Below are positions 8,177-15,035 of a stretch of 64,000 bases of DNA, in pieces; position 1 is the stretch's first letter; each line of letters starts with the position of its first letter. Below the pieces are notes generated by a model. That model searched no databases. It saw only the letters and a list, made by a program, of their open reading frames with translations, and had not been told where the DNA came from. The DNA is from Microbacterium maritypicum (GTDB lineage Bacteria; Actinomycetota; Actinomycetes; Actinomycetales; Microbacteriaceae), in contig NZ_CP168030.1 of the NCBI RefSeq assembly GCF_041529975.1, positions 186,001 through 250,000 on the forward strand. Direction: 5' to 3'. Made by a program: the position numbers and the translations under genes.

Positions 8177-8743
8177 ATGGTACGAACTGTTCTGGAGGGG
8201 CCCGAGCGCGCTGCTCAGACCCGGAGAAAGATCTACGCCGTCCTCGCCGGTGGGCTCGTCGTCGGCGTGGGATCCGCGCTGACACTCGCCGCGTGGAACG
8301 ACTCGGAGTTCGCGACGAGCGACTTCGCCGCAGGAACCTTCGAATTCCAGGGATCGACCGACGGTGCGGCCTGGGCCGACCACGCCGTGGAGGGCGACGC
8401 GGCGGTGCTGACGTTCAGCACCGGCTTCGACAACCTCGCGCCGGACGACGTCGTGTACGCGCCCTTCGCGCTGCAACTGACCGCGGCCAGCACGTCTCCC
8501 GCGGGACTCACCGCCGTCGCGCCCGTCGTGACGGGCGACCTCGCCGGTCAGCTGACGTTCGGCGCAGTGTCCACGACGACCTTCGGATGCGATGAGACCG
8601 CGTTCGCCGGGGGGACGGCCGTGCCCGCCACCATGGATCCGGGCGACATCGTCTACCTGTGCCTGCAGGTCACCGCCGGTGCGACGATCACGCAGGGCGA
8701 CACCGGCACCGCGGTCTGGCAGTGGGACGCCGTCTCGCAGTAG
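8177..8743 (+). CDS. secreted protein with SipW-type signal region (TasA/CalY-like)
   Basis: This 188-residue protein starts at ATG 8177 behind AGGAGGAATC. A basic N-terminus (about residues 1-18) leads into a hydrophobic segment (LAGGLVVGVGSALTLA), then AAWNDSEFATSDFAAGTFEF. The pattern A-W-x-D-S-E followed by F-x-A-G-T is the signature of substrates cleaved by SipW-type signal peptidases, as in Bacillus TasA/CalY fibre proteins. The mature part is a beta-rich domain ending in a Trp-containing strand (TAVWQWDAVSQ), with two Cys that could pair. It probably is exported and assembles at the surface. Its likely processing peptidase is encoded two genes downstream. Confidence 0.75.
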   Translation: MVRTVLEGPERAAQTRRKIYAVLAGGLVVGVGSALTLAAWNDSEFATSDFAAGTFEFQGSTDGAAWADHAVEGDAAVLTFSTGFDNLAPDDVVYAPFALQLTAASTSPAGLTAVAPVVTGDLAGQLTFGAVSTTTFGCDETAFAGGTAVPATMDPGDIVYLCLQVTAGATITQGDTGTAVWQWDAVSQ

Positions 8744-8762
8744 TCACCTCGGCACAGCCATC

Positions 8763-9386
8763 GTGGTCCGACAGGCGCGGGTTCGCGGCCTGAAGACGCT
8801 CACGCGTGTTCAGGCGCTGCTCGCGTGCGCGCTCCTGCTCGGCGTGGGCGCAGCGGGGAGCCTCGCCTCCTGGTCGGACAGCGAGCTGGCGGGCTCGCCG
8901 TTCACGGCGGGCAGTTTCGCCCTCGCATCGCGGACGGATGCCGGTGCCTTCGCCGCGCACCCCGAGGATGCTGCCGCGGCGCTCAGCTGGACGCTGTCGC
9001 CGCTCTTCCCGGGGGAGAGTGCGGCCGCATGGGTGCAGGTCCAGGCGACCGGATCGGTGGACGGAGAGGTGCTTCTCAGCGGGGTGTCGCTCGCGACCGA
9101 GCCCGCCGCGGGCAGCCCGGAGGAGGCGCTCCGGGATGCGCTCGTGGTCAGGGCATCGGTGACCTCGTCGACCGATCCCGCTCCGCCCGAGTGCACCGTG
9201 AGCACACCGGGGGTCGAGGTGACGGGGCTCACCCAGATCCCGGTGCTCCCCGCGCAGCAGGTCGAACCGGCCGGCGGCTCCACCGTGACGTACTGCATCG
9301 TCCTGACGCTCCCGCCCGATGCGCCGGCGGCCGCCCAGGGCGCACAGCTCACGCCGACCTGGGTCCTCACGGGGAGCACGGGATGA
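8763..9386 (+). CDS. second secreted protein with SipW-type signal region
   Basis: The frame from GTG 8763 to 9386 encodes 207 residues. After a basic N-terminus comes a hydrophobic stretch (LLACALLLGVGAAGSLA) and then SWSDSELAGSPFTAGSFALAS, again the W-x-D-S-E ... F-x-A-G-x-F pattern of SipW-dependent signal regions. The mature domain is Ala/Thr/Pro-rich and predicted beta, with Cys residues in PPECTVS and TYCIVL. It is a diverged paralogue of the first gene in architecture, not closely in sequence. It is 19 bases downstream of that gene, and its stop overlaps the peptidase start (ATGA), which indicates coupled translation. Confidence 0.72.
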   Translation: MVRQARVRGLKTLTRVQALLACALLLGVGAAGSLASWSDSELAGSPFTAGSFALASRTDAGAFAAHPEDAAAALSWTLSPLFPGESAAAWVQVQATGSVDGEVLLSGVSLATEPAAGSPEEALRDALVVRASVTSSTDPAPPECTVSTPGVEVTGLTQIPVLPAQQVEPAGGSTVTYCIVLTLPPDAPAAAQGAQLTPTWVLTGSTG

Positions 9387-10621
9387 CGGCCTTCTCGCGC
9401 GGTGCTGCACGGGCGGGCCGCCTCGTCCGGGACATCCTGCTGGCCGCGGCGGCCGTCGGCGGAGCGGCCTGCCTCGTGTTCGCCCTGCTCGCCTTCACGG
9501 GCGGGTACTCGCTGATGATGTTCAAGACCGGCTCGATGTCGCCCACGATCCCGGCGGGTTCGGTCGCACTGGTCCAGCAGATCCCCGCGTCCGAGATCGT
9601 CGTCGGCGACGTCGTCACGGTCGACCGGGCAGGGACGCTGCCGATCACGCACCGGGTCACGAGCGTCGGCGAGGGGAGCGACGCAGCGGAACGCGTGATC
9701 ACGATGCGCGGAGATGCCAACGCCGTAGACGATCCGATGCCGTACACGCTCACCGAGGCACGGATCGTGCGCGGGTCGGTGCCGTATCTCGCACCGGTGA
9801 TCGCACAGTTCGGCAACCCCTGGGTGCTCGGATCGCTCACCCTCGCCACCGCGTTCCTCGTCGGCTGGGCCTTCTGGCCGAGGCGGCCGCGGACTGACGA
9901 CGCAGAAGCCCCGCCCCCGGATCCTGCCGACCCACTGGACCCGCCCGGCGACGGCGAGAGCGCGGGCCGCGCGGCGACGGGAGCGCGCGTGCTGACGGCG
10001 CTCTTCGTGCTCGCGGTCTGCGCGTCGAGCACGGCTCTCGCTCCGGCGCCGGCATCCGCGGCGACCGGTTCGGACTACCTCACCGTGCGCTCCGACCTCG
10101 CCGGTGCCGGTGTGCAGGCGCTCGACCCGCTGGTCCCGCTGCGCTGGCACCTCGATGTGGATGCGTCGAGGGCACCCGCCGACGGCGACCTGGCCATCGC
10201 CATCTCGTCGGCGGGCGACTCGGAGTTCGGACTGCGGGCCGAGGTCCGCGCCTGCGCGCAGCCCTGGGGCCCCGACGGTACGTGCCCCGCGGGAGAGCGG
10301 ATGCTGCGGCCGGAGGGGCCGCTGCCGGTGGACGGCGTCTGGCAGGAGCTGCTCTCCGCCGTGACGCCCGCCGTCGTCTATGTGCAGGTCGCTCTCACGG
10401 CGCAGCCGCAGTCTCCCGAAGCCGGCGCGGCGGGCGCCTCGGTCACGGTGCGGGCCACCGCGGCGGGCGACACCGTCGACACGGGGATCGACGGCGAATC
10501 GGAGCTGCCTCCGACCGGTGGCTCCGGCCTGGCGCTGCTCGCCGCGCCCGCTGCGGTGCTGGTCGGCATCGGCATCGCGCTCCTCGCCCGCCGGCGCCCG
10601 GACCCGAGGGGGCGGCGATGA
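9383..10621 (+). CDS. ER-type signal peptidase (SipW-like) fused to an exported domain with an LPPTG sorting signal
   Basis: One uninterrupted 412-residue frame contains two normally separate proteins. Residues 1-170 are a SipW/ER-type signal peptidase I: N-terminal membrane helix (about 18-38), catalytic Ser51 in TGSMSPTIPAGS, His90 in PITHRV (Ser/His rather than Ser/Lys dyad), GDANAVDD at 110-117, and a second helix (WVLGSLTLATAFLVGWAFW). A Pro/Asp-rich linker leads to another hydrophobic export-like segment (about 200-222, ending in ASAATGS), a 150-residue beta-type domain, then LPPTGGS at about 375, a membrane span and a basic tail RRRPDPRGRR. There is no stop between the halves. A GTG at about 9990 could also start the second half alone. 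It probably processes the neighbouring SipW-type substrates. Confidence 0.8.
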   Translation: MTAFSRGAARAGRLVRDILLAAAAVGGAACLVFALLAFTGGYSLMMFKTGSMSPTIPAGSVALVQQIPASEIVVGDVVTVDRAGTLPITHRVTSVGEGSDAAERVITMRGDANAVDDPMPYTLTEARIVRGSVPYLAPVIAQFGNPWVLGSLTLATAFLVGWAFWPRRPRTDDAEAPPPDPADPLDPPGDGESAGRAATGARVLTALFVLAVCASSTALAPAPASAATGSDYLTVRSDLAGAGVQALDPLVPLRWHLDVDASRAPADGDLAIAISSAGDSEFGLRAEVRACAQPWGPDGTCPAGERMLRPEGPLPVDGVWQELLSAVTPAVVYVQVALTAQPQSPEAGAAGASVTVRATAAGDTVDTGIDGESELPPTGGSGLALLAAPAAVLVGIGIALLARRRPDPRGRR

Positions 10622-12660
10622 AGGCGCTCCGCAGGTTCCTCGTCCTGGTCACGGCCGCCTGCCTCGTCGCGATGACCTTCACCGCATCGCCGGCCGCGGT
10701 GCGTGGTGACGCGCTGCTCGGGATCACGGAGGCGGCGTGGGTCGACGCGCAGTACGCGCGCGGACCCGTCGAGGCCGGCACCCTTGACGTTCCTGTCATC
10801 ACCGCCTGCACGACGGAGAACGAGGGAACGAACGGCGCGATGAGCGGCGTCACGCTGACGTGGACGTCGGTGCTCGACGACCCGGCGCGGATGCTGCTCG
10901 CCTTCTCGGTGACGGCGGGAACCGTCTTCGAAGCGCCGACCGATCGCATCGTGGTGACCGGGCCGGCCGCCGGCCTCTACACGTTCACGTTCACCGCGAC
11001 GGCGTCGGAACTCGACGCCGCGCTGGGGCCACTCGCGGGCGCGAGCGTGGGGGCGGCGGTGTCCACGCGTGCCGGGACGGAATGGCGATCGGATGTCGCG
11101 ACGCGAACCGTCTCGGTCGGGACACTCAGCGGAGGGCTCGGCTCGGCGACCTGCGACCTGGGTCACACCGTCACGCTGACCGGGTTGACCGCGGCAACGC
11201 TGCCGATCTCCCGCGTGATCCCCGTCGGCACCTCCGCCACGTCGTCGCTGCCGCCGGCGCTGCAGGACCGCCGACGCACGCCGGTGTACACGGTCACCGT
11301 CCGCGACATCGCCTCGAATGCGGTCGTCCCGAACGCCGAGGTGACGATCGTGCTCCCGGATGGCCTGGCGTTCGAATCGGGCACGTTCGCCGACCTCGGG
11401 GAAGGCACATTCACCACCAGCGCGACCGGAACCGTCGACTTCCGCGTCGTCGCCAACCGCTCCGAGCCCGCGCAGGGAGCGGTGCGGGTCGAGTCCCCTC
11501 GCGCTTTCACGATCCTCTCCGGCCAACCCGTCACTTCGGTGCCGCTCGTGGCGTGGGGATACTCGGTGGAGGGCCAGACGGGCTCGGACAACCTCACTGT
11601 GGCACGCACCAGCGCCGTGCCCCTCTGGGACAACCTCGCCATCACCGGCGCGACCGCGGTCGGGTCCAGCTATGCCACGATGCTGTACGCCGATCAGGAC
11701 GGCAACATGTGGGGGCGAGGGTACAACGCCTCCGGAATCATCGGAGACGGCACAGTCACGACCCGCACGAGTGTCGTCGCCGGGCTCACCGCGCCCGGCG
11801 TCCAGCTGGCGAACATCACCCACATCGGCACGGGCACGGAACAGCTCTCCTCCGTCGCGGTGGACTCTTCGGGCGGGGTGTGGGCGACCGGCGACAACGA
11901 GCTGAGCGGCTTCGGAGCGGCCTACGCGAACACCCGGTACTGGCAGCGGGTGAGCAACAACTACACGATGCCCGCCGGCGCTCTCACCGCCGAGGTCAAT
12001 CCCTGGGGCGCCGTGATGATGGTGCTGAACAACGGGCAGGCGATGGTCGCGGGAGCCGACAGCTACGGGTACTCCGCGCAGGGGAGTGCGGTCAGTGCCG
12101 CCGCCGGATCAGCGGGACTCCTCATGGTCACCGCGCCCGGCACGCCCATCACGGGTGTCGTCTCGGGAGGGATCGGCTGGCAGTCGTCCGCCGTCGTCAC
12201 CGGCGACGGGCGGCTGTTCACGGCGGGCGCGTCGGCCTACGGCGGCAGCGGCAACTTCTATCTCACCGAGAAGGCGCTCCCCGCGGGGAAGACCGCCGCG
12301 AAGGTGGTCGTCCGCCAGTACCGGATGCTGGTGATCATGACCGACGGATCGGTCTACGCCCTCGGCGCCAACACGAGCAGCGCCCAGGGCATCGGAAGCA
12401 CGGCCACGCCGGGTGCCACCCTGACGCCGGTCGTGATGCCGGTGGGCGCCGTCGTGACCGACGTGACGATGGGGAACGACACGACGCTGTTCCTCCTCGA
12501 GTCGGGTGCGGTCTACTTCGCCGGTCTCAACGACACCGGTGGTGCGGGCGCCGGTGCGACCGGAGGGGCGATCAGCACTCCCGTACGGGTGCCGCTCGCG
12601 CACACCGCAACCAAGATCATCGCGTCCTGGTACGACAGTTTCATCGCGGTGCTCGGATGA
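10618..12660 (+). CDS. secreted RCC1-type beta-propeller protein with SipW-like signal region
   Basis: This 680-residue protein overlaps the peptidase stop (ATGA). The N-terminus is a signal segment (FLVLVTAACLVAMTFTASPA) followed by LGITEAAWVDAQYARGPVEAGTLDV, which keeps the A-x-W-x-D ... A-G-T-L-D layout of SipW substrates. Residues about 60-200 form a first beta-sandwich-like region. About 215-305 is an Ig-like/invasin-type module (YTVTVRDIASNAVVPNAEVTI). From about 310 to the end come at least six RCC1-type repeats, with strands of the W-G-x-x-x-x-G-Q/G-x-G type (VAWGYSVEGQTG, MWGRGYNASGIIGDG, YALGANTSSAQG, YFAGLNDTGGAGAG). RCC1 propellers mediate binding. Secreted bacterial versions are usually surface adhesins of unknown ligand. 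Confidence 0.78.
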   Translation: MKALRRFLVLVTAACLVAMTFTASPAAVRGDALLGITEAAWVDAQYARGPVEAGTLDVPVITACTTENEGTNGAMSGVTLTWTSVLDDPARMLLAFSVTAGTVFEAPTDRIVVTGPAAGLYTFTFTATASELDAALGPLAGASVGAAVSTRAGTEWRSDVATRTVSVGTLSGGLGSATCDLGHTVTLTGLTAATLPISRVIPVGTSATSSLPPALQDRRRTPVYTVTVRDIASNAVVPNAEVTIVLPDGLAFESGTFADLGEGTFTTSATGTVDFRVVANRSEPAQGAVRVESPRAFTILSGQPVTSVPLVAWGYSVEGQTGSDNLTVARTSAVPLWDNLAITGATAVGSSYATMLYADQDGNMWGRGYNASGIIGDGTVTTRTSVVAGLTAPGVQLANITHIGTGTEQLSSVAVDSSGGVWATGDNELSGFGAAYANTRYWQRVSNNYTMPAGALTAEVNPWGAVMMVLNNGQAMVAGADSYGYSAQGSAVSAAAGSAGLLMVTAPGTPITGVVSGGIGWQSSAVVTGDGRLFTAGASAYGGSGNFYLTEKALPAGKTAAKVVVRQYRMLVIMTDGSVYALGANTSSAQGIGSTATPGATLTPVVMPVGAVVTDVTMGNDTTLFLLESGAVYFAGLNDTGGAGAGATGGAISTPVRVPLAHTATKIIASWYDSFIAVLG

Positions 12661-13599: not shown

Positions 13600-14169
13600 A
13601 TGGGATCAGTGGATGATCGGAGCGCCTGGCATCGAGTGCTCTCGGGCGACAGCGATGCGTTCGGGGTCGTGTGGGATCGGCATCGCGACCGCGTCTTCCG
13701 TCGACTGCTCAGCGCGGGGAACACCTCCGCCGACGCCGAGGATCTGACCGCGGCTGTGTTCCTGGAGCTCTGGCGCAAGCGGGCCACGGTCCGGTTCGTC
13801 GACGGATCGTTGTTGCCCTGGCTCCTGGTGACCGCGCAGAACGTGCACCTGAACGCCAGCCGCGCCCGGCGCCGCCACCGCAAGTTCCTCGAGCGCATTC
13901 CTCGCCCCGAAGCCGCACCCGACCCCGCGGACCTGGTAGCCGAGCGGGACTCCGCCCGTAGCCGGCGCGTGCGGGAGGTGCTCGGCCGAGCCCGCGAGCA
14001 GGACCGCCATCTGGCCGTTCTGACAGCGCTCGAAGGGTTCACCGTCCGCGAGGCCGCCGAGGCCATCGGCATCAGTGAACCGGCGGCGAAGATGCGGTTG
14101 TCCCGGCTCCGGGCCCGTCTCTCGGCCTCCACGCCCGATCTGACATCGACGGAAGGAAGCGCATCATGA
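13600..14169 (+). CDS. ECF-type RNA polymerase sigma factor
   Basis: The protein has 189 residues with the two ECF domains. Region 2 spans about residues 15-85 (AFGVVWDRHRDRVFRRLL, then DAEDLTAAVFLELWRKR, the DAED being the usual region 2.2 acidic motif). Region 4 spans about 125-175 (HLAVLTALEGFTVREAAEAI then GISEPAAKMRLSRLRARL, a helix-turn-helix for the -35 element). A basic linker RARRRHRKFLERI joins them. It would direct transcription of a small regulon. Its start is preceded by GGAG at six bases. Its stop overlaps the next start (ATGA), so the partner at 14166 is probably its regulator. Confidence 0.85.
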   Translation: MGSVDDRSAWHRVLSGDSDAFGVVWDRHRDRVFRRLLSAGNTSADAEDLTAAVFLELWRKRATVRFVDGSLLPWLLVTAQNVHLNASRARRRHRKFLERIPRPEAAPDPADLVAERDSARSRRVREVLGRAREQDRHLAVLTALEGFTVREAAEAIGISEPAAKMRLSRLRARLSASTPDLTSTEGSAS

Positions 14170-15035
14170 CTCCCTCGTTCTCCCCCGAGCGTTCCGAGGC
14201 TATTCGTGCGGAGTTGATCACGACGGTGGCGCGCACGCGACCGGGCAGGAGCCGGGGTCTCTGGGCTGCCGTCCTCGTGCTCGCCGGCACTCTCGCGGGT
14301 GCCGGCATCTCTACAGCTGCCTTCGCGGCCACCGGGTCGTTCTCCCCGACGCCGACCCCCGTAGATCAGCCTGCTGTCGACTCTGGAGAGGGCATCATCG
14401 CCCCGCCAGGGACCGAGCCGGGGAGCCCGGTGATCTCGCTGCTCGGCACCCCGCAGAGTCTTGTCGTGGAAGACGACGTCGATGTCGCCCTCGACCGACC
14501 GCCCCGTGAGGCCACGCACGTGCGGGTGACGGTCACTATGACATCTCCGGGCACCGTGACGTGGGGCCCGGATCCTGAGGGGAACAACCCTTCGTCGCAC
14601 GCCTCGACCGCGGACATCGGGGTCACGACCGCCGTTGCGTGGTACGACTTCCCCCTCGACGGCACCGCGATGCGGCTGTACTTCCAGGCGGCGGCCGGTG
14701 CGTCGGCGACCGCCGTTCTGCAATACCTGAACCAGGTGCCGACACGTCTGGGGGTGAACGAACACGGAGACACCTTCGGCGTCGAGGGCGGGCCGGACGG
14801 AACGCCTGATCTCGTGCGGGTCACCGGCGTCGCGGACGACGGACGCGAGGTCGAGGGGTATGCCTGGGCCTCGAAGCTCTCTGCCTTCTCGCCGGAACAC
14901 GATGCTCAGCCGTCCACCCCGAAAGAGGCCGTCGAGTGGCAGGAGGAGCGCGACGAGAAGTACCCATCCGGTTGGGACATCCGCGTCTTCGAGAGTGATG
15001 GGCGAACGGGCATCGGCACCTTCCACGTCGGTTAG
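14166..15035 (+). CDS. membrane-anchored protein coupled to the ECF sigma factor (possible anti-sigma)
   Basis: This 289-residue protein has about 35 cytosolic residues (SEAIRAELITTVARTRPG), one membrane span (GLWAAVLVLAGTLAGAGISTA) and a large extracytoplasmic part. The topology and translational coupling fit an anti-sigma factor, but no zinc-binding H-x-x-x-C-x-x-C motif is seen and the cytosolic part is very short. The outer domain starts with a Pro/Thr linker and is beta-rich. I recognise no family. It could sense an envelope signal or be a target of the sigma factor. Confidence 0.6.
   Translation: MTPSFSPERSEAIRAELITTVARTRPGRSRGLWAAVLVLAGTLAGAGISTAAFAATGSFSPTPTPVDQPAVDSGEGIIAPPGTEPGSPVISLLGTPQSLVVEDDVDVALDRPPREATHVRVTVTMTSPGTVTWGPDPEGNNPSSHASTADIGVTTAVAWYDFPLDGTAMRLYFQAAAGASATAVLQYLNQVPTRLGVNEHGDTFGVEGGPDGTPDLVRVTGVADDGREVEGYAWASKLSAFSPEHDAQPSTPKEAVEWQEERDEKYPSGWDIRVFESDGRTGIGTFHVG

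Follow-up and report, generated by a model that had tools for sequence, protein, structure and literature searches.

Four coupled genes encoding five modules

We analysed a 64,000-nucleotide stretch of the Microbacterium maritypicum genome (the window; contig NZ_CP168030.1, positions 186,001 to 250,000) and describe here a candidate surface-fibre operon at window positions 8177..12660. The operon comprises four tightly coupled genes, s1, s2, g3 and g4, all on the + strand, as are the features within them. A preliminary description of this DNA, made from the sequence alone, had recognised four coupled genes, and the ATGA overlaps at the s2/g3 and g3/g4 junctions bear this out. The four genes encode five modules: s1, s2, an endoplasmic reticulum (ER)-type signal peptidase domain (Sip), an exported surface domain (Anc) and s3, which is here joined to an RCC1 propeller.

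In detail, s1 (8177..8743; 188 aa) is a SipW-type exported subunit with a predicted beta-sandwich that may be TasA-like, and s2 (8763..9386; 207 aa, GTG start) is a SipW-type subunit homologous to it. The third gene, g3 (9383..10621; 412 aa), is a Sip-Anc fusion; named Microbacterium relatives share 93% identity across most of its length. The last gene, g4 (10618..12660; 680 aa), joins the s3 module to the propeller.

Conservation of the five-module unit

Profile searches identified the s1/s2 pair, Sip, Anc and s3 together in 46 of 58 distinct loci, on one strand in 45 of the 46. The exact order s1-s2-Sip-Anc-s3 on one strand was found in 41 complete loci. The others comprise two with the standard module order and s1 split into two reading-frame pieces (L007, L050), two with the order s1-s2-Anc-s3-Sip (L051, L057) and one in which s3 is inverted relative to the rest (L054). 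Twelve loci are partial: s3, s2 or Anc is absent, the contig ends, or the peptidase belongs to a different group. The core modules thus co-occur beyond chance. The earlier proposal of a dedicated SipW-like peptidase encoded with its substrates is also supported.

The loci derive from peptidase matches in 148 relatives, 80 of which had any match at E ≤ 0.001. Forty stretches, nearly all with about 90 bits or more, were widened, and to these were added the window, the second locus of this genome, four plasmid records and 16 further contig loci. Matches of at least 90 bits in G144, G024, G074 and on one G023 contig fall outside the sample, as do nearly all weaker ones. Profiles of s1, s2, Sip, Anc, s3 and RCC1 were run on 62 loci, and 58 distinct ones were retained after L111, L113, L114 and L123 were dropped as coming from the same contigs. 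L044 and L045 are the ends of one broken locus in a metagenome-assembled genome (MAG), and L058 represents another peptidase group. Alignments were built from s1, s2 and 47 of the 120 homologues listed (A1), 13 of 15 clusters of g4-like proteins plus g4 (A2), 27 of 53 Anc (A3), 28 of 50 s3 (A4) and 35 s1/s2 rows (A5).

The named carriers are Microbacterium, nine Brevibacterium records and plasmids of Curtobacterium (2), Arthrobacter and Pseudarthrobacter. Anc was matched at E ≤ 2e-10 in at least 36 of 248 genomes of the order, under eight family labels, some of the matching genomes having themselves supplied rows of the Anc profile. At E ≤ 0.001 the count is 130 of 248, with many weak matches that cover mainly the sorting signal. 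Phylum-wide, 29 of the 296 genomes searched matched TIGR04088, the NCBIfam model that s1 and s2 match. The M. maritypicum genome also carries a second operon copy (C1:1590416-1593396, which is L005:6417-9397) with all five modules, a short s3 and no RCC1. In this copy Sip and Anc are separate genes, and the Sip stop codon overlaps the ATG that would start Anc.

Several further copies were noted. G060 likewise carries two (L040 and L059). Complete operons are present on Curtobacterium plasmids of 148 and 164 kb (L008 and L009), and L008 has an IS30 transposase about 3.5 kb upstream of the operon. On a MAG contig of G023, s1 lies in two reading-frame pieces (L045:4728-5173), through either a frame change or an assembly error.

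The s1 and s2 subunits

Both subunits score above the 19-bit cut-off of TIGR04088 (s1, 26.9 bits, E 3.7e-6; s2, 29.7 bits, E 5e-7), and this model matched all 35 s1/s2 rows scanned. TIGR04089 gave s2 22.5 bits, far under its cut-off of 60. The homology of s1 and s2 was recovered by profile comparison (E 8e-51). The preliminary description had assigned SipW signal regions to three proteins. TIGR04088 confirms two of these; for g4, which has the post-signal part, no NCBIfam model (TIGR04088 included) gave a match at E ≤ 1.

Foldseek comparison of the predicted s1 fold with the PDB returned the TasA fibre (8aur) as the best match (E 4e-4) and the sole one at E ≤ 0.001. Next came several donor-strand pilins, interspersed with glycosidase domains. 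VIA-align with the s1 model did not single out TasA, the scores being those of common immunoglobulin (Ig)-like folds. The TasA/camelysin family PF12389 had no match in this genome (a B. subtilis control was positive), and none for s1 or s2 at E ≤ 1.

The predicted mature N-terminus, a candidate donor segment, covers residues 39-55 of s1 (8291..8341; AWNDSEFATSDFAAGTF), as delimited by the motif in alignments A1 and A5 and by hydrophobic spacing. With the same motif, the segment covers residues 36-52 of s2 (8868..8918). A38, W40 and D42 are invariant in the s1/s2 alignments A1 and A5. Mature TasA starts at residue 28 and has its donor strand at 28-38, with contacts at F29, I32 and F39 (PMC9674648, PMC10151520). 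The step of +10 from W40 to F50 in s1 equals the F29/F39 spacing of TasA. Large hydrophobic residues occupy positions +5, +10 and +15 from the motif aromatic at frequencies of 0.98, 0.89 and 0.84 in s1 (56 rows), 0.65, 0.96 and 0.98 in s2 (49 rows) and 0.53, 0.87 and 0.89 in s3 (47 rows), and positions +1 to +4 at 0.21 or less. Two residues before the aromatic stands an Ala in 55/55 s1, 47/50 s2 and 46/49 s3 rows. By eye, the rows without it (3/50 s2 and 3/49 s3) reflect a broken gene piece or a different residue chosen by the pattern. Neither count includes L058 or a few rows that lack a usable motif (two s3 rows in the spacing count, three rows in the Ala count). From the predicted fold, the motif spacing and the published TasA structure, we infer that in s1 and s2 this segment would be a donor strand exposed by cleavage.

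The s3 module and the RCC1 propeller

The g4 protein carries a donor-like segment at residues 40-56 (10735..10785; AWVDAQYARGPVEAGTL), identified by profile match of s3 to s1/s2. Its post-signal part, A39, A40-W41-x-D ... A-G-T, is like that of the subunits in profile comparison, and A39, W41 and D43 are invariant in 14 aligned RCC1-type proteins. s3 resembles the s1/s2 profiles across no more than 19-20 columns (probability 90-95%; none of 60 shuffles reached the score), and after removal of these columns nothing was left (probability 0.4%). The roughly 20 residues in common correspond to the donor strand of TasA, and an N-terminus that resembles the donor strand of the subunits is a feature of TapA. 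TapA donates its N-terminus as the first strand and, being fully folded, can only start the filament (PMC10151520).

The s3 domain that follows (residues 57-190; 10786..11187) is all-beta in the model and possibly fibronectin-III/Ig-like. Within the s3 family, 3 of the 28 members examined matched fn3 weakly and 5 matched PKD weakly. Pfam and NCBIfam searches with Anc and s3 gave weak matches only, with no TapA model among those listed. The g4 model has a mediocre mean pLDDT of 67.6, and the blocks of the s3 domain lie mostly at 75-92, with one at 69. One of 10 s3 N-termini tested passed TIGR04088. In the RCC1-type s3 proteins, g4 among them, the motif lies 22 residues past the hydrophobic core (5/5), compared with a median of 11 in 44 others. 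Given this long spacer, g4 may be cleaved elsewhere, or by ordinary signal peptidase.

Beyond s3, a linker and beta-rich segment (residues 191-305; 11188..11532) shows strands in the model and has no Pfam match. It leads to the RCC1-like propeller (residues about 310-680; 11545..12657), which scores 46 bits with PF13540 (cut-off 22) and 84.9 bits with PF25390, under that model's cut-off of 150. The best Foldseek match of the propeller is the HERC2 RLD (E 3e-15). The propeller noted in the preliminary description is therefore present, but it does not belong to the conserved unit: the survey of neighbourhoods that found the five core modules together in 46 loci found RCC1 joined to s3 in five of 58, accounting for one change on the Sip tree. 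In 45 of the 50 loci that bear s3 it occurs without RCC1, and the short forms run 118-163 residues from motif to end, apart from one of 276. Matches to g4 in eight relatives span residues 23-186 of g4 or less and lie downstream of the peptidase. When the N-terminal 310 residues of g4 were compared with proteins of 374-1190 aa (the best 8000 candidates scored), 15 clusters of 632-685 aa were recovered at 51-96% identity, all with precomputed RCC1-type Pfam domains. On the five loci and the single tree change we reject RCC1 as an ancestral part of the operon. We conclude that RCC1 is a lineage-specific addition to s3, outside the conserved unit.

The peptidase and its fusion to Anc

The Sip domain occupies residues 1-170 of g3 (9383..9892), with Ser51, His90 and Asp111. 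The Ser (GSMxP) and His (THR) motifs occur in 58/58 Sip domains, and GDxN also in 58/58. Against the archaeal-type model TIGR02228, g3 scored 49.7 bits, about 2 bits short of the cut-off of 51.85, and against the Bacillus SipW model NF046067 33.7 bits, far under the cut-off of 190. As both curated models are missed, we call the peptidase SipW-like rather than SipW. Its closest relatives in the PDB are SEC11A and SEC11C. In L058 (G133:C1:1987000-2003000), a weakly s2-like gene lies between two more ER-type peptidase domains, which belong to another group.

Of the 52 tree rows that have Anc, 30 encode it in a gene apart from Sip and 22 as a fusion with Sip. The fusion state changes 5-6 times on the Sip tree, at least three of these changes being forced by well-supported branches (55 Sip domains, quick method, no bootstrap; L045 and L058 left out, and L044 lacking Sip). 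In g3, hydropathy reveals a signal-like segment directly before Anc (residues 203-226; 9989..10060), composed of a hydrophobic stretch at residues 203-221 and an ASA↓A end. By eye, stand-alone Anc proteins start with apparently ordinary signal peptides. Since the fused form keeps this internal segment, the g3 chain is probably cut in two: g3 is probably two proteins in one frame, split on export, and not a wall-anchored peptidase. The earlier view that the peptidase itself bears the wall signal is thus probably misleading.

Two further loci with fused frames were noted. On a plasmid of Pseudarthrobacter psychrotolerans, a single frame (L007:4257-6110; WP_160679752.1, annotated "signal peptidase I") comprises s2, Sip and Anc; a Tn3-family transposase lies nearby, and the fusion may be a frame error. 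L041 (G028), which stands closest to the RCC1 clade in the Sip tree, encodes s1 and a fused Sip-Anc but neither s2 nor s3, and the opposite-strand frame after its Anc resembles a membrane transporter by eye.

Anc and its proposed wall anchoring

Anc (g3 residues 227-372; 10061..10498) has no donor motif and is weakly like the core of s2. In an hhalign comparison, s2 and Anc matched across 116 columns of the core region that follows the donor segment, with a score of 32.6 (probability 42%), compared with a maximum of 18.3 in 60 column shuffles. Between s1 alone and Anc the match is weak (probability 1.5% over 49 columns; score 19.7, compared with 18.1 in shuffles). All four profile pairs tested beat 60/60 column shuffles, s1-Anc narrowly. 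A pooled s1/s2 profile matched Anc with a probability of 14.6%, and its score beat 40/40 shuffles.

The g3 protein ends with LPPTG followed by a hydrophobic stretch and an Arg-rich basic tail (residues 375-412; 10505..10618), the make-up of a sorting signal. L-x-x-T-G near the C-terminus was found in 53/53 Anc modules, as L-P-x-T-G in 24, L-A-x-T-G in 27 and L-S/Q-P-T-G in 2. L-A-x-T-G suits class E sortases, and the low-scoring LAxTG-type NCBIfam matches of Anc are consistent with a link to such an enzyme. The genome does encode a class E sortase, outside this locus (231.8 bits, cut-off 160). Because anchoring would need a separately encoded sortase, the locus is not self-contained, as it had first been described. 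Another sortase, class F-like with 118.5 bits (below the cut-off of 166), was noted in L127:392-3397 (C1 of this genome, near 499533); its neighbour encodes an exported protein that has a hydrophobic stretch and an Arg tail at the C-terminus, and next comes a gene that by eye resembles one for a sigma factor.

A proposed fibre and the alternatives

We consider it reasonably probable that the five-module operon s1-s2-Sip-Anc-s3 makes a wall-anchored, TasA-like donor-strand fibre. Sip would cut s1, s2 and probably s3 after the near-invariant Ala, whose motif and position are read directly from the sequences, leaving a new N-terminus x-W-x-D ... A-G-T. In s1 and s2 the freed N-terminus would act as the donor strand completing the beta-sandwich of the next subunit, as in TasA. 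As s3 carries a donor-like segment on an unrelated domain, it would be a donor-only piece that starts or caps the fibre, with the RCC1 propeller as a possible binding head in this clade. Anc, with an s2-like core, no donor segment and a sortase signal, could receive the final donor strand, and a sortase, perhaps that of class E, could attach Anc to the wall. Where Sip and Anc form one gene, as here, the internal signal-like segment would let the two proteins separate on export. Taken together, the TapA-like anatomy of s3 and the opposite anatomy of Anc with its sorting signal suggest a polar fibre of the form wall-Anc-(s1/s2)n-s3, which in this clade would end in RCC1. A fibre-type product, as the preliminary description had suggested, is thus the best reading. 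Gene content, motifs, conservation and the history of the fusions are seen in the sequences, and from them we infer cleavage, polymerisation, polarity, anchoring and ligand binding. More tentatively, and with considerable doubts that the weak match of s1 to Anc slightly increases, the parts may be specialised by what they lack: Anc would accept only, s1 and s2 donate and accept, and an exchangeable s3 (with RCC1 as binding head) donate only.

Another account, which we regard as rather unlikely, is that s1, s2 and s3 are displayed or secreted separately after processing by a dedicated peptidase, with no polymerisation, and that Anc and RCC1 are single adhesins or binding proteins. Several points weigh on its side: polymerisation is predicted here and not observed, the VIA-align scores of s1 do not rise above those of Ig-like folds in general, and bee-gut bifidobacteria anchor RCC1 proteins singly through LPxTG (PMC4449606). 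Yet separate display would leave unexplained a donor-like N-terminus common to two unrelated domains, the TasA fibre as the best Foldseek match, and the fact that 46 of the 58 loci pair two homologous subunits with a protein of the end type.

The polarity of a fibre could also be reversed, with s3 as a TapA-like initiator at the cell surface and Anc as a side protein (chaperone or wall tether) instead of an acceptor-only base. TapA is reported to be membrane-associated (PMC10151520), and the similarity of Anc to s2 is modest. The proposed orientation is challenged by these observations, but the sortase signal is on Anc (53/53 modules) and not on s3, which makes Anc more simply the wall-bound end, and its match to the core of s2 extends across 116 columns. 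We therefore judge reversal improbable. Least credible, and in our view very improbable, is the arrangement first described, a four-gene system with a wall-anchored peptidase and an RCC1 protein as constitutive parts. It would fit the single Sip-Anc frame in 22 of 52 tree rows and the s3-RCC1 architecture shared by the 15 clusters of g4-like proteins found among the best 8000 candidates. It conflicts with the 30 rows in which Sip and Anc are separate, including the second copy in this genome, with the internal signal-like segment of g3 and with the scarcity of RCC1 (5/58 loci).

Relation to known systems

SipW/TasA fibres are already known in Bacillus, and the signal class of s1 and s2 is already present in database names. 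The tapA-sipW-tasA operon of Bacillus subtilis likewise encodes an ER-type peptidase with its substrates, and the predicted fold of s1 may be TasA-like (PMC9674648, PMC10151520). It also shares the donor-like mature N-terminus with the spacing of TasA F29/F39 (PMC9674648) and a third protein, TapA in place of s3, that bears a donor segment on another domain (PMC10151520). The operon reported here differs in its two paralogous subunits, in a genome without a match to the TasA Pfam family, and in an s3 without similarity to TapA by any model listed. It also includes the sortase-signal protein Anc, and no such protein is described for Bacillus in the excerpts of PMC9674648 and PMC10151520. In Bacillus cereus, the SipW/TasA/CalY/CapP system similarly combines two TasA-type subunits, an assembly protein and SipW processing, but the 2026 study terms it sortase-independent (PMC13082335), whereas 46 of the 58 loci here include a protein with a sortase signal.

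Like the SipW-dependent exported proteins of NCBIfam TIGR04088/TIGR04089, s1 and s2 have the signal region that TIGR04088 describes, and NCBI names the actinobacterial homologues "SipW-dependent-type signal peptide-containing protein". These names are silent on Anc, s3 or a fibre, and TIGR04089 stays far under its cut-off. RCC1-repeat LPxTG proteins of bee-gut Bifidobacterium also place RCC1 domains on an actinobacterial cell wall, but there the LPxTG is on the RCC1 protein itself (PMC4449606), whereas here RCC1 is on s3 and LPPTG on Anc. Chaperone-usher pili (type 1, CFA/I) supply several of the Foldseek matches of s1 after TasA, and we propose an analogy with them in the division of the structure between anchor, shaft and end piece; unlike in those pili, no gene here could be recognised as a chaperone or usher, and assembly would be by signal-peptide cleavage. 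In searches of the open-licence PMC literature, no title or abstract opening among the papers listed dealt with an actinobacterial SipW/TasA-type or sortase-anchored operon, and "SipW-dependent" was not found together with "Microbacterium".

If the proposed fibre is real, it would be a Gram-positive counterpart of the pilus order of end piece, shaft and anchor, in which one peptidase cut and a sortase replace chaperone and usher. It would reveal by what means these genera attach a TasA-type fibre to the wall, and the RCC1 clade would provide a marker for the fibre end. Genes now named "SipW-dependent-type signal peptide-containing protein", "signal peptidase I" or "hypothetical protein" would become one testable system.

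Downstream of the locus, at window positions 13600-15035, we noted a sigma-70-family gene (Pfam regions 2 and 4) that overlaps a gene for an exported protein without a Pfam match.

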